A DNA stretch of 64,000 nucleotides from Sporolactobacillus vineae DSM 21990 = SL153 (GTDB taxonomy: Bacteria; Bacillota; Bacilli; Bacillales; Sporolactobacillaceae), in NCBI RefSeq assembly GCF_000377985.1, contig NZ_KB899045.1, positions 62,001 to 126,000 on the forward strand, read 5' to 3'. Below are positions 10,958-61,474 of this stretch, piece after piece. Within the stretch, counting starts at the first letter, position 1. The number at the start of each line of letters is the position of its first letter. The notes below the pieces were generated by a model. It had not been told where the DNA came from. It made no database searches and saw only the letters and a program-made list of their open reading frames with translations. The position numbers were made by a program, and so were the translations under genes.

Positions 10958-13627
10958 ATGGCATGGTTTTCCAGACCGGCAGAAGAGGTTTTTTCAGAAT
11001 ATAAAGTGACTGCCGAACAGGGACTTTCCAGTGATGAAGTGCAGCGGAGACTGGCGGAATACGGAGAAAATAAGTTAAAAAGCAAACCGAAAAAAAGTGT
11101 GCTGGCCCTGTTCTTTTCGCAGCTCCGGGACATGCTGATTTACGTGCTGCTCGGAGCGGCCGTGATCACACTGGTGATCGGCGAATACGCGGATACCGTG
11201 ATTATTCTGATTGTGGTTGTGTTGAATGCTGTGATCGGCGTCTTTCAGGAATTCAAGGCGGAAAAGGCGATGGAGGCGCTCCAGAAAATGACGGCGCCGA
11301 AAGCACTGGTCCGGCGCGATGGCGAGATCCGGGAAGTGGAGGCCAGGACGATTGTGCCCGGGGATGTGGTGGTGCTTGATGCCGGACGTTATGTGCCGGC
11401 TGATCTGCGGCTGACTGAAAGCGCTAATCTGCAAATTGAAGAATCGGCACTGACCGGTGAATCCGTACCGACGGAAAAGCACGCCGGCAAAACTTTTGAC
11501 AATGAGAAGACACCGCTTGGGGATCAGGCAAATATGGCTTTTCTGTCCACACTGGTGACGTACGGACGCGGCGAAGGGGTAGCGATAGCCACCGGTATGC
11601 AGACGGAGATCGGCAAGATTGCCAAAGTGCTTGACGAGGATACGGAAGAGCTGACGCCGCTGCAGAAGAAGCTGGCGGAACTCGGGAAGATGCTCGGCTA
11701 TGTCGCCATCGCGATCTGTGCGGTGATTTTCATCGTTGCCCTGATTCAGAAGCGGGATCTGTTCGAAATGTTTCTAACGGCGATCAGCCTTGCTGTGGCC
11801 GCAATTCCGGAAGGGCTTCCGGCGATTGTCGCGATCGTACTGGCCCTTGGCGTGACGCGGATGTCACGGATCCATGCGATCGTCAAACGGCTCCCGGCTG
11901 TGGAAACGCTCGGTTCCGTCACCATCATCTGTTCCGATAAAACCGGAACGCTGACACAGAACCGGATGACGGTCCTGAACACGTACACTTATAAAAATCT
12001 TGACGATGTGCCGGAAACCGGGAATCGCGCGGTGAAGCGTGACGATCTGAAAGACTTGATCCGCTCCCTGGTGCTCTGCTCCGACGCCACTTATGAAAAC
12101 GGCGAGAGTACCGGTGACCCGACAGAAGTTGCGCTGGTCGTGCTTGGCGAAAAATATCAGCTGACAAAAAAAACACTCGAAGCCGCCTGCCCGCGAGTTG
12201 CGGAAAAGCCGTTTGATTCGGACCGGAAGCTGATGTCGACTGTGAACCGGGAGGGAGACGGCTTCCGGGTCAATACGAAAGGGGCCATCGACAATATTCT
12301 GAAGATCGCTACCCGGGCACGGGTCGACGGACAGGTTGTCCCGCTTACCGACGACCTGCGGCATGCGTATCTCGAAACTGCTGAAGCGCTGTCCGACAAG
12401 GCGCTGAGGGTACTTGGTGCAGCCTATAAAGATACGGTGGAACCGGTCCGGGCGGAGGACATGGAGCAGGATTTGATCGTGCTCGGCCTTGTCGGGATGA
12501 TCGATCCGCCGCGTCCCGAGGTCCGGGAGGCGATCGCCAGAACGAAGGAAGCAGGTATTACACCAGTGATGATTACCGGCGACCACCAGCATACCGCGCT
12601 GGCGATTGCCCGGGATCTCGGGATCGCCGATACTCCGGATCAGGCGATTTCGGGCAGTGACATCGATGCGATTCCGGATGATGCGTTTCAAAACGAAATC
12701 AATCGGTACCGCGTCTTTGCCCGCGTCTCCCCGGAACACAAAGTCCGGATCGTCAAGGCCTTTCAGGCGCAGGGCAATATCGTGTCGATGACCGGAGACG
12801 GAGTGAATGATGCACCGTCGCTGAAAAGGGCGGATATCGGCGTGGCGATGGGGATCACGGGGACCGATGTCTCCAAGGGTGCGAGTGATATGATCCTGAC
12901 CGATGATCATTTTACGACCATCGTCGCGGCAATCGAAGAAGGACGGAATATCTATAACAATATCCGTAAATCGGTGGTTTTCCTGCTGTCCTGCAATCTT
13001 GGGGAAATTCTGGCCATCTTCATTTCCGTTCTGTTCTTCTGGCCGGTACCGCTGATGCCGACGCAGATTCTGTGGATCAACCTGATCACCGACACGCTGC
13101 CGGCGATCGCCCTCGGCATTGATCCCGGCGATGCGGAGATTATGAAGCGCAAGCCAAGGAGTCCGAAAGAGAGCTTCTTTGCCGGAGGCGCCGCTGTACG
13201 TGCGATTGTCGGCGGGTCGCTGATCGGCCTTCTGACCTTGATTGCTTTTTATTTCGGGCTGAATGAATACGGCTACAGCATGTGGTCGAAAGGAATCCCG
13301 GGACATGTCCTGAACTATGCGGAAACGATGGCCTTCGTCGTGCTCGCAGTATCGCAGCTCTTTTACTCGCTGGCGATGCGCCATCCGACGCAGTCGATTT
13401 TCAGAATCGGATGGTTTTCAAACCTGTATCTGACCGGTGCCATCGTGCTCGGCATGGTGCTGCAGTTTCTCGTCATTTCGATTCCGGTGCTGGCCGGTGC
13501 ATTCCATGTGCAGATGTTGAGTCTCCGTGACTGGGTGATCGTTGTCGCCTTTTCTCTTGTTCCGCTGGCCGTCAATGAATGCGTCAAAATCGGACTGAGA
13601 ATGCGGCAAAAGGCTTCGCGCAGCTGA
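10958..13627 (+). CDS. Calcium-type cation-transporting P-type ATPase (P2A)
   Basis: 889-residue membrane pump. Phosphorylation site D327 lies in CSDKTGTLT; the actuator TGES motif, [12 protein letters not shown] hinge and about ten membrane segments are visible. Ion-site motifs match SERCA-type pumps: PEGLP with E285 in M4, SCNLGEIL in M5 and NLITDTLPA in M6, so Ca2+ (possibly Mn2+) export is expected. The ATG at 10958 is preferred because GGGGCG lies 7 nt upstream and the protein then starts MAWFSRP; the longer TTG frame at 10943 has its GGAG too close. No linked regulator is seen. Confidence 0.92.
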
Positions 13628-13666
13628 TTGAGTATCATCCTGCCGGAGGATGAGAAAAAAGGGATA

Positions 13667-13695
13667 TTGACAAACAGCAGTTGTGGTGTTTAAAT
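13667..13695 (+). promoter_or_regulatory. Sigma-A promoter of the aromatic operon
   Basis: TTGACA, 17-bp spacer, TTAAAT with a TG one base upstream (extended -10). Predicted start near 13702, 27 nt before the leader-peptide ATG. Confidence 0.7.
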
Positions 13696-13728
13696 GATGA
13701 GTAATCCTCATAGAAGGGAACAGATCCG

Positions 13729-13785
13729 ATGAAACGAATCGCAGTGGCTTTTACTTACTATTATCGCTTTTACTACTTTAGGTAG
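13729..13785 (+). CDS. Tyr/Phe-rich leader peptide of the aromatic operon
   Basis: Eighteen-codon frame encoding MKRIAVAFTYYYRFYYFR then TAG. Five Tyr and three Phe codons fall in the last 11 positions, including TAC TAT TAT and TAC TAC runs. AGAAGGGA lies 10 nt before the ATG and a TTGACA promoter lies just upstream. The stop codon touches the first of a set of hairpins ending in an intrinsic terminator, ahead of an operon for prephenate and tyrosine synthesis. This is the layout of a ribosome-mediated attenuation leader in which scarce Tyr- or Phe-tRNA stalls translation. The mechanism is inferred; the peptide and hairpins are seen directly. Confidence 0.8.
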   Translation: MKRIAVAFTYYYRFYYFR

Positions 13786-13869
13786 CGTTCGTATCCGCTC
13801 CGGGTGCGAACGCCATGCGTTTTAGCATCTGGAGTTGGGAAGCGACAATAGCGCAACCAACTAGAGATG
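13785..13869 (+). promoter_or_regulatory. Attenuator leader hairpins
   Basis: Hairpin 1 (13785-13813): 12 pairs, arms GCGTTCGTATCC and GGGTGCGAACGC, loop GCTCC, beginning on the last base of the leader stop codon, so a terminating ribosome would open it. Hairpin 2 (13826-13869): 13-position arms CATCTGGAGTTGG and CCAACTAGAGATG with a 2-nt internal mismatch. A clear anti-terminator pairing was not found by eye; ATCCG in hairpin 1 can pair with CGGAT in the terminator stem. No T-box core sequence is seen here. Confidence 0.65.
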
Positions 13870-13933
13870 ATTGTTACATCCTAATTGGTCGCCACTACGA
13901 TACGGATCTTGCAATAGATTTCCTGTTCAAAGC

Positions 13934-13967
13934 AGCCAGCCGGATATAACAATCCGACTGGCTTTTT
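13934..13967 (+). terminator. Attenuator terminator before the MFS-chorismate mutase gene
   Basis: Stem of 12 positions with one mismatch (AGCCAGCCGGAT / ATCCGACTGGCT), loop ATAACA, then TTTTT. It is 149 nt downstream of the leader-peptide stop and 158 nt upstream of the first structural gene. Confidence 0.85.
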
Positions 13968-14124
13968 CAATAACTCTGTTATATCTGGTGCTGTTTTCCG
14001 TTGCAGGCGCTCGCTTTTCCCGCAGGAGATTCGTGCCTTCCGCTCGAAACGATCGAGTGAGAAAAACAACATTATTTTTTAGACAGAGCGTTTTCAATAG
14101 AAACAGAAGGGGTGTTTGGGAAGG
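13968..14124 (+). other. Untranslated stretch between attenuator and first gene
   Basis: 157 bp with no gene. It contains GCAGGCGCTCGCTTTTCC, a piece resembling the core of the repeat element at 62.4 kb, and a short inverted repeat CTCG-N7-CGAG near 14043-14057. AGAAGGGG lies 12 nt before the ATG at 14125. Confidence 0.4.
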
Positions 14125-15594
14125 ATGACGAAATCAAACAGAATCAGGCTGAGTCTGGTCCTCTACATGAATTATTTTATTCACGGGATCGGCCTGCTGA
14201 TTCTGACACAGAACATGAAGGCGCTGAGCGGCGTGTGGGGAACGCCGCTGGCAACCGTTTCTTACGTCATTTCCGGTGTGGGGATCGGCAGGCTTCTGGC
14301 TTATTATCTGTTCGGCAGTCTGTCGGATCGATACGGCCGGAAGGTATTTATTGCAATCGGCATGGTCAGCTACACAGTCTTTTTCATCGGCATTGTCCTG
14401 ACCCGGGATTTCCAGGTGGCTTACCTGCTGGCCATACTGGCAGGTATCGCCAACTCGGCGCTGGATTCGGGAACCTATCCAACTTTTATGGAAATGGGCG
14501 GGAACAATGGGGCGGCAAATATCCTGATCAAGGCAGCCATGTCTGTCGGGGAATTTATCCTGCCTCTTTTCATCGGGCTGAATGAGAATCTGGGCGGCTG
14601 GTACGGTCTCAGTTTCGTTCTTGCTGCAGCCATTCTTCTCGTCAACTGTCTCGTGCTCATCCGGACACGGTTTCCGGAACAGTCGCGTCCAGGCGGGAAG
14701 GCAGATCACCGGCTGTTTGAAAAGGGTACGGTGACCGCCCGAAAAATCGTACTGCTTGCCATTCTGTCTTTGTACGGTTACACGTCGATGGCCCTGATGA
14801 TCCTCTATACGCAGTGGATCACGCTCTACGGGATTGGCGATCTGCACATGAGCAATATGCAGGCTCATTTTCTGCTGTCTCTGTACAGTGCCGGATCGAT
14901 TACCGGTGTTCTGATCACTTTCACCTTGTTGAAACGCGCCTTGGTGAAGGATGTTCATCTGATTCTGACGCTCAGCGGACTGGCTCTGCTGGCGCTCCTG
15001 GTGATCTGCTTTTCGGCCAATCCGCTCGTCGTCAGCGCGGCTTCATTTATTTTCGGCATAACGGCGGCCGGCGGGATCATGCAGGTCGGTCTGAATATTT
15101 TCATCTCCCTGTTTCCGAAAGCCAGGGGCCGCGTGACCGGCATCTTCTTCTCGTTCGGCAGTCTCGCTTCGTTCACGGTGCCGATCTTCACCGGGATGCT
15201 GTCGACCCTCAGCACGGTCGCAGCACTGCGCAGCGATCTGATTATCGCCGCCGCTTCCTGTATTCTCTGGCTCATCGGTTACCGGCTGATGCGCCCTTCA
15301 ACAGAGAAGAATGTGAGTTATCGCAAAGAACGGAGCCGGATCAATCTGATCGATTTCCTGATTCTCAGGCTGCTGCAGTGGCGCTTCCGGATGGTCCGTA
15401 TCATCGGTGTTAAAAAACGTGACCAGGAGGGGCAGATTCTTGATCGGGCACGCGAGCAGGAGATCATGGACCGGATTCACCGGCAAATCAGGGATCATGA
15501 AAATGTTGCTTATTATCAGGCGATTTTCCAGACCATTCTGATCAATTCGAAACGCTATCAATCACAGATACAGGAGAAAGGAAGGATCCGATGA
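14125..15594 (+). CDS. MFS transporter fused to an AroQ-class chorismate mutase domain
   Basis: 489-residue fusion. Residues 1 to about 390 are a 12-segment major facilitator carrier (GIGRLL, GSLSDRYGRK loop 2-3 motif), clearly paralogous to the shikimate-cluster carrier at 45521 (NYFxHGxGxxILxQNM, DSGTYP, GRVTGIFFSFGSLASFT). About 85-90 extra residues form a chorismate mutase of the helical AroQ type. All E. coli AroQ active-site residues have counterparts at matching spacing: R403, R420, K431, D440, R443, E444, S475 and Q479 (for R11, R28, K39, D48, R51, E52, S84, Q88). The enzyme should convert chorismate to prephenate on the cytosolic face. The stop overlaps aroC by 4 nt (ATGA). TTG 14116 is an alternative start. 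The carrier substrate is inferred, perhaps shikimate, quinate or an aromatic product. Confidence 0.88.
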   Translation: MTKSNRIRLSLVLYMNYFIHGIGLLILTQNMKALSGVWGTPLATVSYVISGVGIGRLLAYYLFGSLSDRYGRKVFIAIGMVSYTVFFIGIVLTRDFQVAYLLAILAGIANSALDSGTYPTFMEMGGNNGAANILIKAAMSVGEFILPLFIGLNENLGGWYGLSFVLAAAILLVNCLVLIRTRFPEQSRPGGKADHRLFEKGTVTARKIVLLAILSLYGYTSMALMILYTQWITLYGIGDLHMSNMQAHFLLSLYSAGSITGVLITFTLLKRALVKDVHLILTLSGLALLALLVICFSANPLVVSAASFIFGITAAGGIMQVGLNIFISLFPKARGRVTGIFFSFGSLASFTVPIFTGMLSTLSTVAALRSDLIIAAASCILWLIGYRLMRPSTEKNVSYRKERSRINLIDFLILRLLQWRFRMVRIIGVKKRDQEGQILDRAREQEIMDRIHRQIRDHENVAYYQAIFQTILINSKRYQSQIQEKGRIR

Positions 15595-16757
15595 TTTACT
15601 TTACAGCAGGTGAGTCGCACGGCCCGGAACTGACGGGACTGATCGAGGGGTTTCCCGCCGGTCTGCAGCTGTCGGCCGATCAGATCGATCAGCAGCTGAG
15701 TGAGCGGCAGAAAGGTTACGGACGCGGGTACCGGCAGAAGATTGAAAAAGACCGGGTGAAGATCACATCCGGGGTGCGTCACGGCATCACTCTGGGTTCG
15801 CCGATCACCCTCCGGATCGCCAACATCGATCATAAACACTGGGGTGAAATTATGGATCCGGTCGGTGAACCGGATCCGGAAACGAATATGCGGGAAGTGA
15901 AGAATCCGCGTCCGGGCCATGCCGATCTGGTCGGCGGGATGAAATACGGGCATCGGGATCTGCGCAATGTACTGGAACGTTCGTCGGCCCGGGAAACGGC
16001 GATGCGGGTCGCCATCGGTGCGGTTTGCAGCCAGCTGCTCAATCAGCTTGGCATTCAGCTTGCCGGATATGTACGTCAGGTCGGGCCGATTGACGCGGAT
16101 GCCGGCCGGCTGCTGACGCCGGCAGAAATTGAGCGTGAGATCAGTAAGAATGATCTCCGGATCGTCGACCAGGATCAAGTCCTGCCGATTCACGAGCTCA
16201 TTGACCGGACGAAAAAGGAAGGTGACACCCTTGGCGGGATCATCCGGGTCGTCGTGCAAAACGTTCCGGCCGGTCTCGGCAGCTACACAAGCTGGAATGA
16301 GAAACTGGACGCCAAAATTGCTGCCGCAGTGATCGGCATCAATGCGATTAAGGGCGTATCTTTCGGCGACGGCTTCGATCTGTCCGTCCGTCCCGGAAGT
16401 AAGGATATGGATCAGATCTACTGGGATAAGGAGCACGGCTGGTACCGCAGCAGTGATCATCTCGGCGGGTTCGAAGGCGGCATGACCAACGGGATGCCGA
16501 TCATCGTCAATGCGGCGATGAAGCCGATCCCGACTCTTTACAAACCGCTGCACAGTGTCTCGATCGACAGCAAGGAAGAACATAAAGCCAGCATCGAACG
16601 CTCCGATGTGACAGCGATCGTTCCGGCGTCTCTCATTATCGAAGCAGTTGTCGCCATCGAACTGTGCAAGGCCATACTGGATACGTTTGATTCGAGCAGC
16701 ATGGAACGGCTGAAAAAGCAGTATCAGGACTACTGTGAGGAATTAAAAAATTACTGA
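15591..16757 (+). CDS. aroC: Chorismate synthase
   Basis: 388-residue FMN-dependent enzyme converting 5-enolpyruvylshikimate 3-phosphate to chorismate. Visible signatures: FTAGESHGPELTG at the N-terminus, GYGRGYRQ, GHADLVGGMKYGHRDLRNVLERSSARET and the C-terminal GMTNGMPIIVNAAMKPIPT. GAAAGGA precedes the ATG, which overlaps the stop of the MFS-mutase gene, so its product chorismate is the direct substrate of the fused upstream domain. The B. subtilis name for this gene is aroF. Confidence 0.96.
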   Translation: MIYFTAGESHGPELTGLIEGFPAGLQLSADQIDQQLSERQKGYGRGYRQKIEKDRVKITSGVRHGITLGSPITLRIANIDHKHWGEIMDPVGEPDPETNMREVKNPRPGHADLVGGMKYGHRDLRNVLERSSARETAMRVAIGAVCSQLLNQLGIQLAGYVRQVGPIDADAGRLLTPAEIEREISKNDLRIVDQDQVLPIHELIDRTKKEGDTLGGIIRVVVQNVPAGLGSYTSWNEKLDAKIAAAVIGINAIKGVSFGDGFDLSVRPGSKDMDQIYWDKEHGWYRSSDHLGGFEGGMTNGMPIIVNAAMKPIPTLYKPLHSVSIDSKEEHKASIERSDVTAIVPASLIIEAVVAIELCKAILDTFDSSSMERLKKQYQDYCEELKNY

Positions 16758-16771
16758 GGAGATTCTGACCG

Positions 16772-17377
16772 GTGATCATTCATACACTTGGACCTGAAGC
16801 AACCGACAGCAACGATGCGGCGGATTATTATCTGAAAAGAGAAACCGGAATCAGTCAGGTTGTGCTTCACGATTGTTTCGAAGACATTACCGATCATCTC
16901 GGGATATATCAGGGCGACTGTCTGCTGATTCCAGCCGCGTTCAAGTCGTTTCGAAACCACACGGACTGGGCAGATTTTCATTACGGACATGTCGCCCAAC
17001 TGACCCTGATTGACTGCTTCCGCCATCCATTGAATCGTCTGGTCCTGATCCGTCGGCTGAACGCGGTGCAGGATGCGGCTTATACCCATCCGTCGACTTC
17101 GGCACTGCTGAAAAGTTATCTGAAATCGGTCGGTGCCTGCCCGAAAGTTGAGTATGCAGACAGTAAATATCTTGCGTACCGGAAGTATCAGGAAACGCAG
17201 GCACGGTTTGTCCTGACGAACGAGCGGAATGTTCATCTGACTTCAGGGGAAGACGTGGAGCGATCGTGGACGCCTGACATGGTCTGGTGTGTCTATCAGA
17301 TTAAATCTAATGAAGAGAATCGGGTGAGAGGGCATGAAAATTTTACATACAAATCTTCGGACAGGATTAACCGGTGA
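16772..17377 (+). CDS. BacA-like / divergent prephenate dehydratase-fold protein
   Basis: 201 residues, no ACT domain. It opens HTLGPEATDSNDAADYYL, the TLGPxxT..AA signature of prephenate dehydratases and of bacilysin BacA. It then shows VLHDCFED, LLIPAAFKSF, THPSTSALLKSYL and FVLTNERN blocks that line up by eye with recalled BacA sequence (LHDTFES, IVPHAYDG, SHPSPINLIKYF, IALTNEL). Where dehydratases have the catalytic Thr-Arg-Phe it has TPDMVWCVY, as BacA has a similar non-TRF stretch. BacA decarboxylates prephenate without aromatizing it; this gene could do that, be a second branch toward phenylalanine, or regulate. GTG start with GAGGAGA about 10 nt upstream. Its 3' end overlaps aroA by 44 nt. 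Other bacilysin genes are not nearby. Confidence 0.65.
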   Translation: MIIHTLGPEATDSNDAADYYLKRETGISQVVLHDCFEDITDHLGIYQGDCLLIPAAFKSFRNHTDWADFHYGHVAQLTLIDCFRHPLNRLVLIRRLNAVQDAAYTHPSTSALLKSYLKSVGACPKVEYADSKYLAYRKYQETQARFVLTNERNVHLTSGEDVERSWTPDMVWCVYQIKSNEENRVRGHENFTYKSSDRINR

Positions 17378-18647
17378 ACTTGCGGTGCCGGGTGATAAAA
17401 GTATTTCACACCGCGGGGTGATTCTCGGCGCAATCAGCCGGGGCACCACGGAACTGACACATTTTCTGCTGTCGGAGGATTGTCTGTCGACGATCCGCGC
17501 CTTTCAGGATATGGGCGTTGCGATTGAACGCAGGGACGACCACGTGCTCGTTCACGGGGCCGGACTGAACGGACTGAACCAGCCGCGGCTTCCGCTGAAC
17601 ATGGGAAACTCCGGAACAACGACGCGCCTCTTGCTCGGGCTGCTGAGCAGACAGGACTTCACGACCGAACTTATTGGCGACGCGTCCCTGAGTCGTCGGC
17701 CGATGCGGCGGGTCACCGAGCCCCTGACCCAATCGGGTTCGGCCTTTAAAGTCAGTGCCCGCGGAACATTGCCGATCACGGTCTGTGGACGGCCGCAGTC
17801 TGCGCCGATTCATTACCGGCTGCCGGTGGCCAGTGCTCAGGTGAAAAGTGCGCTGATTCTTGCAGCATTGCAGGCGGACGGGGTATCGACGATTGTCGAG
17901 AAGCAGCCGACCCGGAATCATACGGAATTGATGCTCCGCGCTTTTGGTGCGGAGATTGAGCAGCGGGGTCTGGAAATAAAGGTCAGCGGTCGACCGGAGC
18001 TCGTCGGCCGTTCCCTGAAGATCCCCGGAGATTTGTCTTCAGCGGCTTTCTTTATTACTGCGGCCACTTTGGTCAGGGGCAGTGAAATCCGACTGGCGAA
18101 TGTCGGGCTGAATCCGACGCGTACCGGCTTCCTGGACATTCTCAGGCGAATGGGCGGCGACGTGACTGTTCTGAACAGAAGTGATGACGGCGAACCTGCC
18201 GGAGATCTTCTCGTTCGCCATGCCGGCCTTCATGCGGTGTCGCTTTCAAGCCAGGACATTCCGGGAGCGATCGACGAACTGCCGTTGATCGCGCTGCTGG
18301 CGACTCAGGCGGAGGGGATCACGGTGATTCACGGCGCGGAAGAGCTGCGTGTCAAAGAGACGGACCGAATCGCCGTTGTGACGGAAGAACTGAGAAAACT
18401 TGGCGCGTCGGTCACTGAACTGCCCGATGGCATGACGATTCAGGGACCAACGCCGCTCAGTCCGCGGGAGACCCATGTTGTCGACACACACGGCGACCAC
18501 CGGATCGGCATGATGCTTGGGGTCGCAGCGCTGCTGAGCAGGCATGAACTCAGGCTGCGCGGGGAGGATGCCGTCGCCGTTTCCTATCCGGAATTTTTCA
18601 GCGATCTGGATCAATTGCTGTCTGCAGGAAGGCCGGTGCGGCCATGA
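17334..18647 (+). CDS. aroA: 3-phosphoshikimate 1-carboxyvinyltransferase (EPSP synthase)
   Basis: 437-residue enzyme joining phosphoenolpyruvate to shikimate 3-phosphate. It has the N-terminal GDKSISHRGVILGAISRGTT motif, NMGNSGTTTRLLLGLL, LSRRPMRRVTEPL and the C-terminal RVKETDRIAVV and DTHGDHRIGMM blocks. The Gly in GNSGTTTR and neighbouring residues resemble class II (Gram-positive) enzymes. The ATG follows GAGAGGGC and lies inside the end of the preceding gene; the stop overlaps tyrA by 4 nt (ATGA), so translation is coupled through the operon. B. subtilis calls this gene aroE. Confidence 0.96.
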   Translation: MKILHTNLRTGLTGELAVPGDKSISHRGVILGAISRGTTELTHFLLSEDCLSTIRAFQDMGVAIERRDDHVLVHGAGLNGLNQPRLPLNMGNSGTTTRLLLGLLSRQDFTTELIGDASLSRRPMRRVTEPLTQSGSAFKVSARGTLPITVCGRPQSAPIHYRLPVASAQVKSALILAALQADGVSTIVEKQPTRNHTELMLRAFGAEIEQRGLEIKVSGRPELVGRSLKIPGDLSSAAFFITAATLVRGSEIRLANVGLNPTRTGFLDILRRMGGDVTVLNRSDDGEPAGDLLVRHAGLHAVSLSSQDIPGAIDELPLIALLATQAEGITVIHGAEELRVKETDRIAVVTEELRKLGASVTELPDGMTIQGPTPLSPRETHVVDTHGDHRIGMMLGVAALLSRHELRLRGEDAVAVSYPEFFSDLDQLLSAGRPVRP

Positions 18648-19753
18648 AAACCATCGTCGTTGACGGACTGGGATTGATCGGCGGGTCTCTGGCCCTGGCG
18701 ATCAGGAAAAAGTGGCCGGATCACCGGATTTATGCCGTTGATGTGAATCAGCAGCTGCTGACTTTTGCTGAAAACCGCGGCATGATCGACGGCGGTTTTG
18801 CACAGCTGCGGGATATCGCTCCGGCGGCTGATGTGATTGTACTGGCAGCCCCCGTCGGAACGATTCTGGCACATTTGGACCGGCTGGCGGAACTTTCACT
18901 GAAAACAGATGTCCTGGTTACGGATGTCGGCAGTACCAAACAGGAGATCACGGCAAAAGCGCAGAGACTGAGCGGCCGGGGCGTGATCTTTATCGGCGGT
19001 CATCCAATGGCCGGCTCGCATAAAACGACCGTTCGTGCCGCCCGCGCCGACCTGTTTCAAAGCGCCTATTATTTTCTGATTACCGATACGATAACGGATG
19101 AACGGCACCGCCGTGCGGCCGATGAACTGCAGACTCTGCTTTCAGGAACGCATGTCAAGTGGCAGCTCGTGTCGGCCGCCGAGCATGACCGGGTGGTCGC
19201 CCAGATCAGCCACCTGCCGCACCTCATTGCCTCCGGATTAGTCAATCAGTCGCAGACGGAGTTCAGCCACTCGCCGCTTTCTTTAAAACTGGCTGCCGGC
19301 GGTTTCCGAAGCATTACCCGGATCGCCTCCTCCGACCCGACGATGTGGACGGATATCCTGTTAAGCAGCAAAGCGACAATCGTTGCCAGAATGGATGGCT
19401 TCGTCCAGGAATTGCAGCGCCTCCGGCAGGCGATCATCCGGTCCGACCAGGAAGCCATCCGCAATTATTTTCTGAAAGCCAAGGTCACCCGGGACGGCAT
19501 TACCGATGCTTCCCGTGAACATGTTCCCGGTTTTCATGATCTGTTCCTGAATATTCCCGACCGGGTCGGAGAAATCGCTAAAGTCACACGAATTCTAGAA
19601 GAAGAACAAATCAATCTGATTAATATCCATATCCTTGAGATCAGAGAAGAAATCGACGGCGTCCTGCAACTGTCGTTCTCGAACCGCCAGGATCTGATCC
19701 GTGCGAGAAACGCGCTGACCCGATACGGATTTACAGCAGTCAGGAGTGATTAA
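18644..19753 (+). CDS. tyrA: Prephenate dehydrogenase with C-terminal ACT domain
   Basis: 369-residue NAD-dependent enzyme turning prephenate into 4-hydroxyphenylpyruvate for tyrosine synthesis. The N-terminal Rossmann motif is VDGLGLIGGSLALAI; VTDVGSTK, GGHPMAGSHKTT and ISHLPHLIASGL are dehydrogenase signatures. The last 75 residues (FHDLFLNIPDRVGEIAKVTRIL onward) form an ACT domain, suggesting feedback control by tyrosine. With the fused mutase domain two genes upstream this completes chorismate to hydroxyphenylpyruvate in one operon. Confidence 0.94.
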   Translation: MKTIVVDGLGLIGGSLALAIRKKWPDHRIYAVDVNQQLLTFAENRGMIDGGFAQLRDIAPAADVIVLAAPVGTILAHLDRLAELSLKTDVLVTDVGSTKQEITAKAQRLSGRGVIFIGGHPMAGSHKTTVRAARADLFQSAYYFLITDTITDERHRRAADELQTLLSGTHVKWQLVSAAEHDRVVAQISHLPHLIASGLVNQSQTEFSHSPLSLKLAAGGFRSITRIASSDPTMWTDILLSSKATIVARMDGFVQELQRLRQAIIRSDQEAIRNYFLKAKVTRDGITDASREHVPGFHDLFLNIPDRVGEIAKVTRILEEEQINLINIHILEIREEIDGVLQLSFSNRQDLIRARNALTRYGFTAVRSD

Positions 19754-19755
19754 AC

Positions 19756-20280
19756 ATGACAGAATTTGTGTTAACCGGTTTTATGGGCAGCGGGAAAACA
19801 ACGATCGGCCGTTTAATGGCGGAAATGCTGCACTGCCCGCACATCGATCTTGACGAAGCGATCGTTGCAAAGGCCGGGAAGTCCATCAGCCGGATTTTTG
19901 CCGAAGAGGGGGAGCCCTATTTCCGGGACCTTGAAACGCAGCTGCTTGCCGCAGCAGTCGCTCGGGCGGGGATTCTCTCAACCGGAGGAGGAACGCCCGT
20001 ACGAATGGAAAACAATCTGCTGCTGCGCCGGATCAAGACGCCGGTCATCTTTCTGGAAACGTCTCCGGAGATGATCCTTGAACGGCTGAAAAATGACCGG
20101 AACCGTCCGCTTGTCCAGGCACTGGATCCGGACAAACTACTTCAGCTGTACCGGGAACGGGAAAGCTGCTACCGGCAATCGGCGGACTTCAGGATCTCCA
20201 CCGACCGGAAAACGCCGATCGAGATCGTTCGTGAGATTATGGAGCGGGCACACATTTCCGCTGAAGATGGGATGCACTGA
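19756..20280 (+). CDS. aroK: Shikimate kinase
   Basis: 174-residue P-loop kinase phosphorylating shikimate at the 3-hydroxyl. Walker A is GFMGSGKTT; the shikimate-binding DLDEAI, FxxGEPYFRDLE and STGGGTPV motifs and the lid NDRNRPLV are present. It begins 2 nt after the tyrA stop and is the last gene of the operon. The operon lacks DAHP synthase, aroB, aroD and aroE; copies of the last two lie in the separate cluster at 44-49 kb. Confidence 0.95.
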   Translation: MTEFVLTGFMGSGKTTIGRLMAEMLHCPHIDLDEAIVAKAGKSISRIFAEEGEPYFRDLETQLLAAAVARAGILSTGGGTPVRMENNLLLRRIKTPVIFLETSPEMILERLKNDRNRPLVQALDPDKLLQLYRERESCYRQSADFRISTDRKTPIEIVREIMERAHISAEDGMH

Positions 20281-41285: not shown

Positions 41286-42185
41286 TTAATCCAATGATAT
41301 CGGATGATTCTGTTTCAGAAGGAAGTCCTTGAATGCGTCCGCTGCGGGACTCATGAAACTGTGTTTCAAATATGCGAGATAGATGATCCGGGCAGGAATC
41401 TTATTCGTGATCTTCAATATTTTTACATCAAATGTGTCAAGCATCTTCATTTTCGGGATGATCGCAATCCCGTAGTTAATCGACACCAGTCCGGCCATTG
41501 CCTGATCTTCCTCAACAATACAGGCAATCTTCGGCTGGAGCCGAAGTGAACGGAAGGTGTCGCGTATATATGGATAGAGTCCGCTTTTTCGATTAAACAG
41601 GATATAGGGATAATCGGTGGTTTGTCGGAGATCGATGCGGTCGTATTTGGCGAGCGGATGATTTTTTGACGTGATCAGCACCAGTTCTTCCCGATATACT
41701 GGGGTAAAACTAATTTCCGGATGGCCTTCAGCATAGGAACAGACAGCAAGATCGCAAGATTCGTCGATAAGTTTATTCGTAACATCCTGAGTTGTCCCTT
41801 GGTGAAAACTAAAACGGATTCGGCCATATACCGGCTTGTCCGAGAACTCACGGACCATTTTAGGGACAAATGCAGCACCCATTGTATAGATAAAAGCCAA
41901 TTCTATCGTGCCTGAATGAGGATCAATCAGGGTATCAAGTGCTGCCTTTCCTTTTTTCAGTTCATCAAGCGCTTTCCGTACATAGGTCAAATAACATTTT
42001 CCATAATGGGTCAGGTGAACATTCCGTCCCTGCTTTTCAAACAGTAATACACCCAGTTCCGACTGAAGCAGGGAAATGGCATGACTGAGCGTCGGTTGCG
42101 TAATGGTCAGCCGATCTGCCGACAGTGAATAGTTTTCTGTCTCTGCCAGGTCACGGAAATAATAAAGTTGTTTCAAGTTCAACAA
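41286..42185 (-). CDS. LysR-type regulator of the quinate/shikimate cluster (QuiR-like)
   Basis: 299-residue LysR protein with N-terminal winged helix (LNLKQLYYFRDLAETENYSLSADRLTITQPTLSHAISLLQSELG) and a C-terminal effector-binding domain. TTG 42185 is chosen because AGAGG is 6 nt upstream; TTG 42182 or 42200 are possible. It is divergent from the ene-reductase, aroE, MFS, MFS and aroD genes. In Listeria a LysR regulator, QuiR, activates a similar gene set in response to shikimate, so the same role is inferred. Confidence 0.85.
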   Translation of the reverse strand: MLNLKQLYYFRDLAETENYSLSADRLTITQPTLSHAISLLQSELGVLLFEKQGRNVHLTHYGKCYLTYVRKALDELKKGKAALDTLIDPHSGTIELAFIYTMGAAFVPKMVREFSDKPVYGRIRFSFHQGTTQDVTNKLIDESCDLAVCSYAEGHPEISFTPVYREELVLITSKNHPLAKYDRIDLRQTTDYPYILFNRKSGLYPYIRDTFRSLRLQPKIACIVEEDQAMAGLVSINYGIAIIPKMKMLDTFDVKILKITNKIPARIIYLAYLKHSFMSPAADAFKDFLLKQNHPISLD

Positions 42186-42304
42186 GAATCGCCTCTTCAA
42201 TTAAACTATAGATAAAATCAATAGATAATGGATGATAATTTTATTGTAATCAATGTAAGCGAATTCTACAATAAATTTGTGAATGAATTAACAATCTTTT
42301 TATG

Positions 42305-42320
42305 ATGACTGTCCAGTCAT
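42305..42320. promoter_or_regulatory. Inverted repeat in the LysR/ene-reductase intergenic region
   Basis: ATGACTGTCCAGTCAT, perfect 7-bp arms with a 2-bp spacer. It overlaps a plausible -10 (TATGAT at 42301, with TTGTGA 18 bp upstream) for the ene-reductase gene. A candidate operator; the binding protein is unknown. Confidence 0.5.
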
Positions 42321-42340
42321 TTTACAACAAATCAATTTAA

Positions 42341-42356
42341 TGTGAATTACATCACA
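42341..42356 (+). promoter_or_regulatory. CRP/FNR-type palindrome 3 (before ene-reductase)
   Basis: TGTGAATTACATCACA, an exact TGTGA-N6-TCACA match sharing TGTGAATTA with sites 1 and 4. It lies 23 bp before the ATG, downstream of the likely promoter. Confidence 0.75.
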
Positions 42357-42378
42357 AAAAGAAGAGGAGTGACTGGTA

Positions 42379-44412
42379 ATGGTAACTGACTATCCATTGC
42401 TTTTTAAACCACTGACGGTTAAAAGAATGACAATTAAGAACCGGATCATCATGCCGCCGATGGGTACCAATTTTGCCAATCTGGATGGAAGTATGAGTGA
42501 AGATCATTTGTCATATTATCGTGACCGGGCCAGGGGGGGTACGGGCCTGATTATTCTTGAAAACGTCTGTATCGACTACCCGATGGGCACGAATGGAACA
42601 ACACAGCTGCGAATGGATAATGATCAGTTTATTCCAGGCCTTTACAAATTTACAGAAACGATGCATGCATATGGCACTTGTGTTTCCGTCCAGATCAACC
42701 ATGCCGGTGCTTCAGCTTATCCCGGACGCCTCAACGGAGCCCGGCCGGTTTCCTCATCTGAGGTTCCATCTAAAAAGGGAGGATCTGTGCCTCGTCCGCT
42801 CAGCCGGGAAGAGATTCTTGCGATTGTCAAAAAATACGGTGAAGCAGCTCGGAGAGCACAGCGCGCCGGGTTTGACTGTGTCGAAATTCATGCCGGCCAT
42901 TCCTACCTGCTGAGCCAGTTTCTATCCCCGTATTACAATCAGCGTCACGATGAATTCGGCGGCAGTCCGGAAAACCGTGCCCGGTTCACCCGAATGGTCA
43001 TTGATGAAGTTCGCCGGCAAGTCGGTCCGCACTTTCCGATTGCGCTGCGCTTCAGTGCCGATGAGTTTGTACCGGGCGGCAATTCACTGGAAGATACGTT
43101 GGCACTGCTGGACTTTCTAAATAACCAGATTGATATCTTCAATGTGTCGGCGGCACTGAATGATTCAATTCAGTACCAGATCGATGAAATGTCACTGAAG
43201 GACGGCTGGCGTGCGTATATGGCAGAAGCTGTGAGGAAAAAGTTTGGAAAAGTTACTGTGACTTCAGGGAATATTCGTACTCCTGCAACAGCCGAGCAGA
43301 TTCTTGAAGACGGACAGGCAGATCTCATTGCTCTCGGCCGCGGGCTTCTGGCGGAACCCTATTGGGTCAACAAAGTTCGGAATGGTCAGGAAGACCTGCT
43401 TAGAAAATGTATTTCCTGCAACATCGGCTGTGCCGACAACCGGATTGCCCAGTGCAAACCGATCCGCTGCACGATTAATCCGGATCTGATCCATGGCGAT
43501 GACTACAAGCTCTATCAAGTTGCCCATCCGGTTCGTGTGACAGTCATCGGCGGCGGTACGGCTGGACTGGAAGCCGCCTGCACCGCAGCAGAAGTTGGCT
43601 GCGACGTTCAGCTATTCGAAGCCAAGCCATATCTTGGTGGGCTTGCCCGCGAGATTTCCAGACTTCCTGATAAGAAAAGAATTGCAGATTTCCCGGATTA
43701 TCTGGAGAACAGAGCAAGGCGGCTGTCCAATCTGAGTATTTCTCTGAACCATCGGGCTACTCTCAACGATGTTGCACAGATGCGCCCGGATATTGTCGTG
43801 ACAGCCAGCGGCGCTACACCGCTCCTTCCGCCGATTACCGGTTTGCATGAGGAACTGGATAAAGCTGACCGGAAAGTATTTTCGGTCTTCGATCTCCTGG
43901 CGGACTTGAAGAGGTTCAGTCCATTTACAGGTAAAAATGTAGCCATTGTCGGCGGCGGAGCAGTTGGCCTCGATGTGGCGGAGTATTTCTCCAGTCGAGG
44001 TGCAGGTTCCGTGTCTATCATTGAAATGCTGCCGGTTCTGGGTAAAGATCTTGATCTGGTTACTAAAGTATCAATGAAGGCGATGCTCAGGAAGTACCAC
44101 GTCAATCAATTCACGAATACCGCTTTGGTACGTGTTGCGGCAGACCATTTCGATGTCCGCGCAGAGGGAGTCGAGCGTTCGGTTAACTTTGATTATGGCT
44201 TTATCTGCCTTGGAATGCGGTCATTCAATCCGATGGGCAAAGAACTGACTGATTTCTGCCTTTCTAATAAGATTGAACAGATAACTATCGGTGACAGTAA
44301 GGCAGCTCGCCGGTTGATTAACGGCACTCAGGAAGGAAGAAACATTCTTAAAACGATTGAGAAAGTTGACAGTCTGAAGAGTGGTTTTCCTGTTGCTGTC
44401 GGGATAAAGTGA
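42379..44412 (+). CDS. Flavin/iron-sulfur ene-reductase (2,4-dienoyl-CoA reductase / old yellow enzyme family)
   Basis: 677-residue NAD(P)H enzyme: an N-terminal FMN TIM barrel (LFKPLTVKRMTIKNRIIMPPMGT; EIHAGHSYLLSQFLSP), a 4Fe-4S ligand set CISCNIGC...CTIN near residues 341-367, and a C-terminal FAD/NAD domain (VIGGGTAGLEAA; VAIVGGGAVGLDVAEYF). Such enzymes reduce activated C=C bonds. Next to shikimate dehydrogenase and carriers it likely reduces the cyclohexene ring of shikimate or dehydroshikimate, using it as an electron sink (inference; a homologue sits in the Listeria qui cluster). GAGGAGTG precedes the ATG. Confidence 0.88.
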   Translation: MVTDYPLLFKPLTVKRMTIKNRIIMPPMGTNFANLDGSMSEDHLSYYRDRARGGTGLIILENVCIDYPMGTNGTTQLRMDNDQFIPGLYKFTETMHAYGTCVSVQINHAGASAYPGRLNGARPVSSSEVPSKKGGSVPRPLSREEILAIVKKYGEAARRAQRAGFDCVEIHAGHSYLLSQFLSPYYNQRHDEFGGSPENRARFTRMVIDEVRRQVGPHFPIALRFSADEFVPGGNSLEDTLALLDFLNNQIDIFNVSAALNDSIQYQIDEMSLKDGWRAYMAEAVRKKFGKVTVTSGNIRTPATAEQILEDGQADLIALGRGLLAEPYWVNKVRNGQEDLLRKCISCNIGCADNRIAQCKPIRCTINPDLIHGDDYKLYQVAHPVRVTVIGGGTAGLEAACTAAEVGCDVQLFEAKPYLGGLAREISRLPDKKRIADFPDYLENRARRLSNLSISLNHRATLNDVAQMRPDIVVTASGATPLLPPITGLHEELDKADRKVFSVFDLLADLKRFSPFTGKNVAIVGGGAVGLDVAEYFSSRGAGSVSIIEMLPVLGKDLDLVTKVSMKAMLRKYHVNQFTNTALVRVAADHFDVRAEGVERSVNFDYGFICLGMRSFNPMGKELTDFCLSNKIEQITIGDSKAARRLINGTQEGRNILKTIEKVDSLKSGFPVAVGIK

Positions 44413-44481
44413 TCTATGGATCGCTGTTTCCGGCACGACATCAAATAAATCTATTAACGATCAGGAAGGGAACGATGACTT

Positions 44482-45387
44482 ATGACTGAAAGAATCACTG
44501 GACACACTGAATTGATTGGACTAATTGCCACACCGATCCGGCACAGCCTTTCGCCGACGATGCACAATGAGGCTTTTGCAAAACTGGGACTGGATTATGT
44601 TTATCTGGCTTTTGAAGTAAACAACCAGGAATTACCTGACGTCATCAAAGGTTTTCGTGCACTCAAACTACGCGGCTGGAATGTTTCCATGCCGAATAAA
44701 CGTCTGATCGGCAACTATCTTGACAAACTAACTCCGGCAGCTCAACTTGTCGGTGCAGTAAATACGGTCGTCAATGACCACGGTGTTCTGACCGGTGACA
44801 TCACTGACGGAACGGGCTATATGAGAAATCTGAAAGAAAACGGTGTGGACATTATTGGCAAGAAAATTACCATTGTCGGAGCAGGAGGCGCCGCGACGGC
44901 CATCTGTGTACAGGCCGCACTCGATGGCGTCCGGGAAATCTCAATTTTTAACCGGAAAGACGAGTTCTATGAAAATGGTAAAAGGACTGTGGAAAAAATC
45001 AATTCAAAGACCTCCTGCAGGGCAACCCTGTTTGACCTTAATGATACGGAACGTCTGCGGACAGAAATTGCCGACAGCGTCCTATTCGGAAACGCCACCG
45101 GAGTCGGCATGAAACCTCTGGAGGGGCAGAGTGTGATCAAGGATCCGTCAATGCTGCGGCCCGATCTTATTGTTACTGATGTTGTTTACAGCCCGAGGCA
45201 GTCGAAATTGCTCCAGATCGCTGAAGCACAAGGATGCCGCTTTTTTAATGGACTCGGCATGATGCTCTGGCAGGGGGCACGGGCATTTGAAATCTGGACA
45301 GGGAAACAAATGCCGGTCGATTATATCCGGTCATTACCATTCCTGGCCGACGACACTAAGAAAGGTTCTGCCTCATCTGCCAGGTGA
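44482..45387 (+). CDS. aroE: Shikimate/quinate 5-dehydrogenase
   Basis: 301-residue NAD(P)-dependent dehydrogenase interconverting 3-dehydroshikimate and shikimate, or 3-dehydroquinate and quinate. Substrate motif SLSPTMHNEAF, catalytic Lys in NVSMPNK, Asp in DITDGTGY, cofactor motif IVGAGGAATAI. The NVSMPNK form is that of YdiB/quinate-using enzymes rather than the NVTIPHK of biosynthetic AroE, which fits a catabolic cluster. GGAAGGGA lies upstream. Confidence 0.92.
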   Translation: MTERITGHTELIGLIATPIRHSLSPTMHNEAFAKLGLDYVYLAFEVNNQELPDVIKGFRALKLRGWNVSMPNKRLIGNYLDKLTPAAQLVGAVNTVVNDHGVLTGDITDGTGYMRNLKENGVDIIGKKITIVGAGGAATAICVQAALDGVREISIFNRKDEFYENGKRTVEKINSKTSCRATLFDLNDTERLRTEIADSVLFGNATGVGMKPLEGQSVIKDPSMLRPDLIVTDVVYSPRQSKLLQIAEAQGCRFFNGLGMMLWQGARAFEIWTGKQMPVDYIRSLPFLADDTKKGSASSAR

Positions 45388-45422
45388 TAAAAAAGAGAGC
45401 AATTGATGCTCTTACATTCGTA

Positions 45423-45438
45423 TGTGAATTAAATCACA
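45423..45438 (+). promoter_or_regulatory. CRP/FNR-type palindrome 4 (before first MFS gene)
   Basis: TGTGAATTAAATCACA, an exact TGTGA-N6-TCACA match, in the 133-bp gap after aroE. It implies separate control of the transporter pair and aroD. Confidence 0.75.
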
Positions 45439-45520
45439 TTTTATCCTGCGCTTTTGTCATAGACAGGCATCATGTGTTTGCTATCCTGAATTCACTTTCT
45501 AAAAAGAGGGGTTGTCTCGG

Positions 45521-46738
45521 ATGAAAAATAAATATTTTCCTACTGTACTTGGCCTCTATATCAACTACTTTGTTCATGGCATGGGCGTGATCATTCTGGC
45601 ACAGAATATGGATGCGCTGGCGAAACAATGGAATACAAATGTCGGCGGTGTCGCTATTGTCATCTCTGCCCTGGGCATCGGACGTCTGCTGGTCTTGTTT
45701 GTTTCCGGAATTCTGTCGGATAAATTCGGCCGAAAACCATTTGTATTTCTCGGCCTGACGACTTACATCTGTTTCTTTGTCGGTATCCTGATCAGTCCGA
45801 ATATTGCTGTTGCCTATCTCTTCGGCATCCTGGCCGGTGTGGCAAATTCATTTCTGGACTGCGGAACGTATCCTGCCCTGATGGAAGCCTATCCGGAATC
45901 GGCATCAACCGCGAATATTATGCTGAAGGCATTTATTTCCGGCGGTCAGTTTCTCCTTCCACTGATCATTAGTCTGTTTGTTGCAGCAAATATCTGGTTC
46001 GGCTGGTCATTTCTGATTGCAGCGATCATTCTTGCTGCCAATGCCATTTTCCTGTTCCGCCGGCCTTTCCCGCCGATGCGGCAAAAAAGCCAGAATGATG
46101 GCGGAGCGAGTCAGGCTGCAACGATTCACTTTGTCGAAAAACCGAAATTTTGGATTGAAGGCGTTTGCTTTTGCCTGTACGGTTATATTTCACAGGCAAC
46201 ATTTTACCTCGTCAGTCAGTGGCTGACGAAATATGGGAGCAGCGTCGCAGGAATGAGTGATACATCTTCGCGTGCACTGATGAGTTATTACGCGATTGGT
46301 TCCATCATCTGCGTATTCGTCACGGCAGTACTTGTAAAAAGATTTCATACGCTGTTCTTTCTGGTTGGTTACACATTCATTTCTATGATCGCTCTGCTGA
46401 CACTTGTTCTCTTTCCCGATCCAGCCGTTTGTGTTGCTTTCTCATTTGTAATCGGTTATTCGGCGGCCGGCGGTGTGATGCAGCTGGCTCTTGTCCTTAT
46501 GGCGGAAGTATTTCCCAAAGGGAAGGGAACGATTACCGGCACATTTTACACACTGGGCAGTATTGCCTCATTTACGATCCCTTTAATTACCGGCAGTCTG
46601 TCCAACACAAGCATCGCCAGTATCATGGTTTTCGACACGTGGATTGCAGCAGCCGGATTTGTGCTGGCACTGATCATTGCGTATCGTTATCATAAGGTCA
46701 TCCGCATTGTCCCGGACGCTGAAGAAAAAGTTTCATAA
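45521..46738 (+). CDS. MFS transporter, likely shikimate/quinate
   Basis: 405-residue 12-helix carrier (YINYFVHGMGVIILAQNMDAL; GILSDKFGRKP loop motif). It is a clear relative of the carrier half of the fusion at 14125 and of the next gene, but ends at residue 405 with no extra domain. ATG 45521 is used because AGAGGGG lies 9 nt upstream. Position in the shikimate cluster suggests uptake of quinate or shikimate. Confidence 0.85.
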   Translation: MKNKYFPTVLGLYINYFVHGMGVIILAQNMDALAKQWNTNVGGVAIVISALGIGRLLVLFVSGILSDKFGRKPFVFLGLTTYICFFVGILISPNIAVAYLFGILAGVANSFLDCGTYPALMEAYPESASTANIMLKAFISGGQFLLPLIISLFVAANIWFGWSFLIAAIILAANAIFLFRRPFPPMRQKSQNDGGASQAATIHFVEKPKFWIEGVCFCLYGYISQATFYLVSQWLTKYGSSVAGMSDTSSRALMSYYAIGSIICVFVTAVLVKRFHTLFFLVGYTFISMIALLTLVLFPDPAVCVAFSFVIGYSAAGGVMQLALVLMAEVFPKGKGTITGTFYTLGSIASFTIPLITGSLSNTSIASIMVFDTWIAAAGFVLALIIAYRYHKVIRIVPDAEEKVS

Positions 46739-46800
46739 AGAAAAAGCGGGCAATGGCGCAGAGCCTCAGTTTGTCAGAAGTAATCCGGGAGGCGTAGAAG

Positions 46801-48036
46801 GTGAAGAGAAAAGACGGCTATACTTTTTCGGCAGTTTGCTGTTACAGCGCATATTTTGCATTTGGTATGGCTTATATTATGCTGGCACAGAACATGAGCT
46901 TTCTGCAGGCGCAGTTTCACACAGACGCGGCTGGAATCAGTTTCATGATTGCCGCATTCGGACTGGGCAGATTGTGTACGGTATTTATCGACGGCATGAT
47001 TGTCGACAAAATCGGCCGCAAAGGAATGATTATGATTGGAACGATATTCATGGCTGCTTTCCTTTTCGGTGTTCCACTGGCACCCAGCTATTTTGTAGCA
47101 CTGTGCTTTTCAGCATTCGGCGGGCTGTCGATCGCCTGTCTGGATACAGGCACTTATCCTTCACTCATGGAGTTTTTTCCAAAGTACGGCAGCTCTTCAA
47201 CGGTAATTCTGAAAGCAATTATCTCTTTCGGTTCGGCACTGCTGCCGCTGCTGATTATCTTCCTCAATAAAGAGAATTTGTTTTACGGACTGGCTTTCTT
47301 TTTGCCCGGACTGATCTATATCACTTTATTTCTGTTATTGATCAGAGCGCCTTTTCCAAGAAAAGAATCTGCGGTAGTTTCCGGAAAGACGCCGCCGCAT
47401 GTCCGTTTTAAAAAGAAACCAAAATTCTGGCTGGATGGAGCAGCATTTGTTCTGATTGGATTTACAGCACCCGGGTTGCTCTATATTATGGGAACATGGC
47501 TGCCGACCTATGGGCAGCAGGTGACCGGTATGGAGCTTGGCCAATCACTGAAGCTTGTCAGCTATTACAATATGGGTGCGATTCTATCGGTTGTCTGTCT
47601 GGCATTATTGCTGATGAAGGTGCTGAGGCCGGTGACAATCCTGGCCGTGTTCCCGGTGGCATCCTTTTTGTCGACCGTGCTGTTTATGATCACCCGTTCC
47701 TTCGCAGTCGCTGACTTTGCAGCATTTTTAATCGGTGTGTTTACCGCCGGAGTCTTTCAACTGTGTATTGCCGTTTTCTGCGAATTTTTTTGGAATCGCA
47801 AGGGGACCGTTACCGGTACAATCGACACTGCCACAGGAATTGCCCAGGCAGGAATTCCGTTTGTCACCGGACTGATCCTGCGAAATACGGATATTCAGGG
47901 CGTTTTCTTCTTCTCCCTGGCGGTTAACGGAATGGGCATACTGCTCGGTTTACTGGTCAACTATCGTTACAGGAGATTGCTCGCCGGCAGAGATGATGAA
48001 CTGGAACCGAAGTCTGCAGAAGCTGTGAATCGGTAA
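46801..48036 (+). CDS. MFS transporter, second copy in shikimate cluster
   Basis: 411-residue carrier (AFGMAYIMLAQNMSFLQAQF; DGMIVDKIGRKG). Same subfamily as the preceding gene but diverged, so probably an old tandem duplication with a different substrate or direction (for example product export). GTG start with GGGAGG 10 nt upstream. Confidence 0.84.
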   Translation: MKRKDGYTFSAVCCYSAYFAFGMAYIMLAQNMSFLQAQFHTDAAGISFMIAAFGLGRLCTVFIDGMIVDKIGRKGMIMIGTIFMAAFLFGVPLAPSYFVALCFSAFGGLSIACLDTGTYPSLMEFFPKYGSSSTVILKAIISFGSALLPLLIIFLNKENLFYGLAFFLPGLIYITLFLLLIRAPFPRKESAVVSGKTPPHVRFKKKPKFWLDGAAFVLIGFTAPGLLYIMGTWLPTYGQQVTGMELGQSLKLVSYYNMGAILSVVCLALLLMKVLRPVTILAVFPVASFLSTVLFMITRSFAVADFAAFLIGVFTAGVFQLCIAVFCEFFWNRKGTVTGTIDTATGIAQAGIPFVTGLILRNTDIQGVFFFSLAVNGMGILLGLLVNYRYRRLLAGRDDELEPKSAEAVNR

Positions 48037-48055
48037 AGAGAGTGGAGTGAGACAT

Positions 48056-61095: not shown

Positions 61096-61137
61096 TAAAC
61101 TGTTTCAAGTGAAACAATCATGATTTTCTCGTAAAAG

Positions 61138-61417: not shown

Positions 61418-61474
61418 GCTGCCCCGGTGAATCCGCTCAGAAGCAGAATCGATTTTAAAAAAAGGGTGATCGGC

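Follow-up and report, generated by a model that had tools for sequence, protein, structure and literature searches.

A putative shikimate importer joined to a chorismate mutase heads a candidate Tyr/Phe-attenuated operon in Sporolactobacillus vineae

The gene at 14125-15594 (+ strand) of the window, the whole stretch of 64,000 nucleotides of Sporolactobacillus vineae DNA that was analysed, encodes an MFS carrier that runs on in frame into an AroQ chorismate mutase. We think it probable that this protein is a shikimate importer tethered to an active mutase, and that its gene is the first in an operon under Tyr/Phe attenuation. The domains, the active-site residues, the operon, the leader and its paired segments are read directly from the DNA. 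A wider proposal, on which our judgement is evenly balanced, is that the arrangement is a salvage module by which bacteria lacking AroB, and some lacking AroE, live on environmental shikimate through a mutase-joined carrier whose operon is under a Tyr/Phe attenuator. If this is true, a missing upper pathway alone does not make a lactobacillus a Tyr/Phe auxotroph, and the surroundings may supply shikimate. The reading would also give a testable cargo to the YdiM/YdiN carriers, whose cargo is described as unknown in PMC10588857, and would add an aromatic leader-peptide attenuator that is common to two Bacillota families and has no Rfam match in the scans.

The fusion gene opens an operon whose products would lead from shikimate to Tyr and probably to Phe; its genes are assigned as follows.

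14125-15594, + strand: MFS carrier (about residues 1-390) followed by AroQ chorismate mutase (about residues 403-482); Pfam, alignments and AF2 model
15591-16757, + strand: aroC, chorismate synthase; NCBIfam PRK05382 and TIGR00033 above cut-off
16772-17377, + strand: divergent prephenate-dehydratase-like (PDT-like) protein without an ACT domain; AF2 and Foldseek, no Pfam match
17334-18647, + strand: aroA, EPSP synthase; Pfam above cut-off
18644-19753, + strand: tyrA, prephenate dehydrogenase; profiles above cut-off
19756-20280, + strand: aroK, shikimate kinase; E 6.5e-38, below the equivalog cut-off

The fusion ORF has 489 aa counted from its ATG, and a TTG three codons 5' of it is a possible alternative start. 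The aroC ATG (15591) overlaps the fusion stop codon by 4 bases; the first-pass annotation had pointed to this overlap, and an operon with aroC is supported. In Lactobacillaceae the same lower operon lies 3' of the fusion, with the PDT-like gene present or absent. In S. kofuensis (L052), aroC, the PDT-like gene and aroA were not found 3' of the fusion and tyrA is split into two short frames; this operon reads as decaying, with the carrier-mutase and aroK retained. A fusion homologue annotated just as 'MFS transporter' is located on the Nicoliella spurrieriana plasmid NZ_CP093360.1 (344 kb; L226), together with aroE, aroD, aroC, aroA, tyrA and aroK.

The third gene of the operon has no match in Pfam, and PF00800 has none in the window's genome at E 0.001. 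Two of its relatives match the Pfam PDT profile with E 0.002-0.003 (17.8 and 18.3 bits, below the cut-off of 25.2), and no PDB sequence match to a profile of the gene was found. Foldseek with the AF2 model (pLDDT 88) ranks five prephenate dehydratases at the top (TM about 0.5) and, after them, LysR-type and binding-protein domains with a similar E-value. An ordinary prephenate dehydratase was rejected because the Pfam PDT cut-off is not reached; the fold search on the model favours PDT, and the protein may work like one. A BacA-type prephenate decarboxylase may be another candidate identity, for which no paper was found in the PubMed Central subset.

The operon leader is best read as a candidate ribosome-mediated Tyr/Phe attenuator with mutually exclusive terminator and antiterminator forms. 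Its parts are as follows; the positions of the segments were transferred by hand from alignment A7.

13729-13785, + strand: leader peptide ORF MKRIAVAFTYYYRFYYFR, 18 residues, 8 of them Phe/Tyr, with the ribosome-binding stretch GAAGGGAA upstream
13762-13890, + strand: attenuator RNA, S0-S3 region; consensus fold, alternative fold and model R1
13762-13783, + strand: S0 (leader codons), pairing with S1 at 13827-13847
about 13786-13813, + strand: hairpin right after the leader stop codon
13855-13866, + strand: S2, pairing with S3 at 13879-13890; S1:S2 is the alternative
13933-13967, + strand: terminator hairpin S4:S5, then a T run; S4:S3, the alternative, is the antiterminator

When the upstream stretch is shuffled, the Phe/Tyr density of the leader peptide is reached in none of 100 cases, and the leader pattern has a single match in the window and none in five window shuffles. 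Leaders of the form YYYGFYYFR occur about 200-400 bases 5' of most carriers. A short upstream ORF with at least six aromatic residues in its last 12 codons precedes 56 of 82 carriers (30 of 43 fused, 26 of 39 unfused), a score that shuffles reach in 0.7% of cases on average. Among the other 26 carriers, 13 score 5, mostly with a weaker form of the same leader peptide, and eight have aroD directly upstream, so that the carrier is not the first gene there; five have neither feature.

The RNA at 13715-14000 has a folding z of -7.06. When 11 Sporolactobacillus leaders are folded together, the consensus has S1 paired to the leader codons, S3 to S2, and a terminator made by S4 and S5. In this fold 17 of 53 pairs carry double changes, a number reached by 0 of 500 shuffles, and 95.3% of cells are paired. 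The alternative fold, S1:S2 with S3:S4, pairs 92.5% of cells, against 18-41% in slid controls; 6 of its 22 pairs are doubly changed (reached by 29 of 500 shuffles), and with its five measures reached by 6 to 126 of 500 shuffles it is less strongly supported than the terminator fold. A shorter form of the terminator hairpin also came up in a hairpin scan, in which such sites were no more numerous in this region than expected by chance. Scarcity of charged tRNA-Tyr or tRNA-Phe would stall the ribosome at the Tyr/Phe codons of the leader and free S1, whereupon S1:S2 and S3:S4 would form and transcription would read through. In all other cases S0:S1, S2:S3 and the terminator S4:S5 would form.

Model R1 matches at 13753-13896, the window's own leader being one of its 11 rows. 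The Sporolactobacillus-only leader model matches 17 of 18 chosen Lactobacillaceae loci (E 7.6e-13 to 0.008; L128 is unmatched), along with a few extra weak, unexplained matches. Two places in the window's genome match it: the fusion operon and, with a weak E of 0.07, the upper aro operon. The second leader (L205:1200-1382, contig C6) lies 5' of a gene that by eye resembles transketolase, followed by aroE, DAHP synthase and AroB, and its peptide ends LNRYYYFGWFR, a Trp codon included. Leader composition fits the product in both cases, with Tyr/Phe for the fusion operon and Tyr/Phe/Trp for the common pathway. An Rfam scan of 13600-14150 gave one match (E 0.92), taken as chance. A T-box was ruled out for this leader; the T-box of the window lies elsewhere, at 61131-61399 (109.7 bits), 5' of the ORF at 61427-62314.

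The window's genome keeps the upper pathway, with aroE, DAHP synthase and AroB on another contig 3' of the gene that reads as a transketolase, so import would not be obligatory there. DAHP synthase and AroB are jointly absent in 4 of 15 genomes of the genus (G010, G012, G020, G021), and three of these four (G010, G020, G021) have the fusion. Among 201 Lactobacillaceae genomes (an even draw, with completeness of at least 95% requested), aroC is found in 114 and AroB in 81. Linkage to aroC, taken as a carrier within 2 kb, is seen in 29 of 37 AroB- genomes and in 21 of 77 AroB+ genomes; the odds ratio is 9.7 (Fisher p 2.9e-7, kinship uncorrected). All 114 aroC+ genomes are in this table, which was made after one based on carrier distance to the mutase; the earlier table covers 112 genomes, G147 and G155 having been excluded because of stop codons or too low a score, and has the carrier linked in 27 of 37 AroB- and 20 of 75 AroB+ genomes. 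The DAHP synthase search covered the genus genomes and Oenococcus oeni (G057), where AroB is absent and a DAHP synthase match is present. Eleven of the 29 carrier-linked AroB- genomes also have no AroE match (G035, G057, G100, G122, G147, G168, G198, G209, G225, G240, G241); the fusion is present in five of the eleven, namely G035, G100, G122, G225 and G241. Species that have the fusion but no AroB include Lactiplantibacillus herbarum and Bombilactobacillus mellis. A lower pathway kept without AroB and AroE, and with no visible internal source of shikimate, points to imported shikimate. The link to transport of a shikimate-pathway compound that the first-pass annotation proposed is supported.

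In the remaining 8 of the 37 AroB- genomes no carrier lies within 2 kb of aroC, and AroE is missing as well from five of the 8. Of these five, G120 has an adjoining broken carrier, G082, G115 and G140 have a carrier-family member elsewhere in the genome, and G178 has none. G080 is scored as unlinked, with its carrier at least two genes further along the same operon.

On the aroC tree, linkage changes at least 8 times and AroB 19 times. An independent-pairs test on this tree gave no association between AroB and linkage, with about 1.3 pairs along and about 1.1 against; 13 pairs differ in AroB and 4 in carrier linkage, with the same outcome for both, too few to test. For the fused state there is a slight opposite lean (0.3 vs 1.2 and 0.6 vs 1.3). 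A count of AroB losses, designed after this outcome and dependent on the midpoint-rooted aroC gene tree, places 16 independent losses on carrier-linked lineages and 6 on others, where 40% is expected by tree length (binomial p 0.0036; 0.0033 without three divergent rows). The count is supportive of a link between AroB and the carrier, not proof of it.

The carrier may instead import an earlier precursor, namely quinate, 3-dehydroquinate or 3-dehydroshikimate, rather than shikimate. Some AroB- operons of this type hold aroE and aroD (G096, G187, G207, G190), and aroD/aroE adjoin unfused relatives of the carrier; both observations are in its favour. The 11 of 29 carrier-linked AroB- genomes without an AroE match speak against it, since only shikimate would help them, and we regard it as doubtful as a general account. 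The substrate may differ among lineages, and our preferred reading, a YdiM-family carrier importing shikimate, allows for a close precursor such as 3-dehydroshikimate or quinate.

The fusion is present in 10 of 15 genomes of the genus Sporolactobacillus, with the mutase in a frame of 492-532 aa, and is the only CM_2 match in three of the 10 (G000, G016, G021). In the Lactobacillaceae, CM_2 is matched in 114 of 201 genomes; in 31 of the 201 the match lies in a frame of 477-575 aa, which is the fusion. It is the sole CM_2 match in 30 of these 31 (the search covered CM_2, with the AroH type outside it), and the 31st, G047, has no further CM_2 match that is both intact and above cut-off. A sequencing frameshift or assembly joint, the artefact first considered, is ruled out by these intact homologues in many genomes and by purifying selection on the tail. 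Two short, narrow carrier patterns run over contigs of 84,980 species gave 49 loci, fused and unfused, all of them in Sporolactobacillus or Lactobacillaceae.

Carrier and mutase are separate adjoining genes in L072, L082, L086 and others, and carriers without a tail remain with aroC (L051), with tyrA-aroK (L055) or with aroK alone (L054). On a carrier tree of 86 rows, 43 of them fused, the fused label changes at least 10 times, and 6 changes are forced by starred branches (a quick method); one 'unfused' row, L078, is cut by a contig end. Taken with the split neighbours and the tail-less carriers, these changes show that the tail was joined and lost repeatedly. This history bears on the idea that tethering itself matters, with a membrane-bound mutase channelling chorismate or gating transport by prephenate flux. 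Retention of the fusion in two bacterial families is in its favour, whereas the split and tail-less forms indicate that tethering is not obligatory, and the whole pattern fits a joining of neighbours without a strict need for it. We therefore rate a tethering function as unlikely.

AroK is a second unusual partner of the mutase, fused to it in L128, L129 and L130 (genomes G080, G114 and G069). Mutase frames of 265-273 aa occur in 17 Lactobacillaceae genomes, and an AroK alignment was found in all three that were checked. An unfused carrier lies directly 3' of the AroK-mutase frame in G080 and G114.

The carrier half matches MFS_1 of Pfam with E 2.7e-30, most strongly over residues 17-273. Its sequence identity to E. 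coli YdiM is 42% across 390 aa, and that to YdiN is 33%. By sequence homology over the whole carrier and by its shikimate-gene neighbourhood, it is assigned to the YdiM/YdiN MFS subfamily. Further members are encoded elsewhere in the window.

44482-48823, + strand: shikimate/quinate cluster with an aroE-type dehydrogenase, two MFS paralogues and an aroD-like gene (by eye)
45512-46738 and 46801-48036, + strand: MFS paralogues of the fused carrier; Pfam and carrier tree

Both of these had been called paralogues of the fused carrier, correctly so: both are MFS proteins and paralogous to it. The one at 45.5 kb is 58% identical to E. coli YdiM and closer to YdiM than to the fused carrier. The cluster in its wider extent (41286-48823) also includes an OYE-type flavoenzyme and a divergent LysR-like gene (by eye) at 41286-42200.

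E. coli YdiM carries the annotation of a putative exporter, and PMC10588857 proposes Cu transport for it and ties it to an oxidase. The fused carrier could accordingly be an exporter or a Cu transporter, placed in the operon for overflow control or metal supply. This seems quite improbable given that the carrier is retained by aroC in genomes without AroB or AroE, and that L054 keeps it with aroK only. In an E. coli shikimate producer, lack of ydiN raised shikimate about 1.3-fold in small culture, and in fed-batch culture the shiA ydiN double mutant brought no gain over the shiA mutant (both from PMC8788726); the first result counts for the import reading and the second against it.

The tail is predicted from sequence to be a complete and probably active AroQ mutase, as had been proposed at the outset. 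CM_2 is matched by the full-length fusion (E 1e-10) and by the isolated tail (E 3.9e-12), the latter with 46.7 bits against a curated cut-off of 27; the match scores below the NCBIfam equivalog cut-offs. Residues R403, R420, K431, D440, R443, E444, S475 and Q479 align with R11, R28, K39, D48, R51, E52, S84 and Q88 of E. coli PheA, which are its eight active-site residues. The E. coli spacing claimed for them is kept apart from the stretch between E444 and S475, which is one residue shorter. None of the eight positions varies among the aligned fusions, 10 of 10 in one set and 23 of 23 in another that overlaps it. Of 43 fused proteins, 42 keep a six-residue motif; the remaining one, L102, has lost the R51 equivalent, though it is the sole CM_2 match of its genome (G241). 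The AF2 model of the whole fusion (mean pLDDT 80.1, pTM 0.71) has the carrier helices followed by tail helices at 398-433, 441-454 and 458-484. Their count and order, a long H1 and then H2 and H3, agree with the AroQ fold in this full-length model. A Foldseek search with the whole fusion had carriers only among the 50 matches listed. GC3 is 0.76 just 5' of the junction and 0.63 and 0.54 within the tail. Tail dN/dS is 0.03-0.17 in four pairs of close relatives, which indicates purifying selection; the window's own pair is saturated.

The fusion tail is the single CM_2 match in the window's genome (2.86 Mb, 99.77% complete), and a profile search found no AroH-type mutase there. A non-catalytic role for the tail in sensing or dimerisation, as the equivalog scores and the arginine missing from L102 might suggest, is very unlikely for the sole CM_2 domain of a genome, in the same operon as tyrA and with catalytic positions intact in 23 of 23 aligned fusions. 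AroQ mutases act as dimers, as the E. coli enzyme does, and the fused protein should therefore dimerise through its tails. In the reading we prefer, the carrier would bring shikimate inward and bear the active mutase on its cytosolic C-terminus, and AroK, AroA, AroC, the mutase, the PDT-like protein and TyrA would convert shikimate to Tyr and probably Phe. The topology, the direction and substrate of transport, the catalysis, the dimer and the stalling logic are all inferred.

PMC10588857 (PLoS One 2023) mentions that chorismate mutase is joined to YdiM orthologues 'in a handful of cases' and models one such fusion, from Fructobacillus durionis. The domain order is thus not new, and the first-pass statement that no transporter-mutase fusion had been described does not stand. 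Those fusions share domain order, carrier subfamily and shikimate-gene neighbourhood with the one in the window; the passages on them contain no test of a fusion and no mention of AroB loss, sole-mutase status or a leader. No account of the sole-mutase status, the AroB-loss pattern and salvage, or the leader was found in the PubMed Central subset searched. What is new here is the sole CM_2 mutase, the phenylalanine/tyrosine operon, the AroB-loss pattern and the conserved leader; the domain order was known.

PheA, TyrA and the mutase-DAHP synthase fusions have the same Pfam family and active site as the tail described here. PheA and TyrA carry the mutase N-terminally. In the window the mutase is C-terminal, and its partner, in contrast to theirs, is an integral membrane carrier. 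The cluster at 41286-48823 resembles E. coli ydiM-ydiN-ydiB-aroD in gene content. In E. coli, ydiM and ydiN adjoin ydiB and aroD, the neighbours form no Phe/Tyr operon, and there is no mutase tail.

Ribosome-mediated attenuators of the pheL/trpL type consist of a short ORF with end-product codons and then a terminator. The window's leader has this plan in common with them and with uORFC-13-1 upstream of aroF in Acholeplasma, as described in PMC8632094. What sets it apart from both is a cascade of segments that pair alternately, the leader codons being among them; leaders of its type occur in two Bacillota families without an Rfam match.
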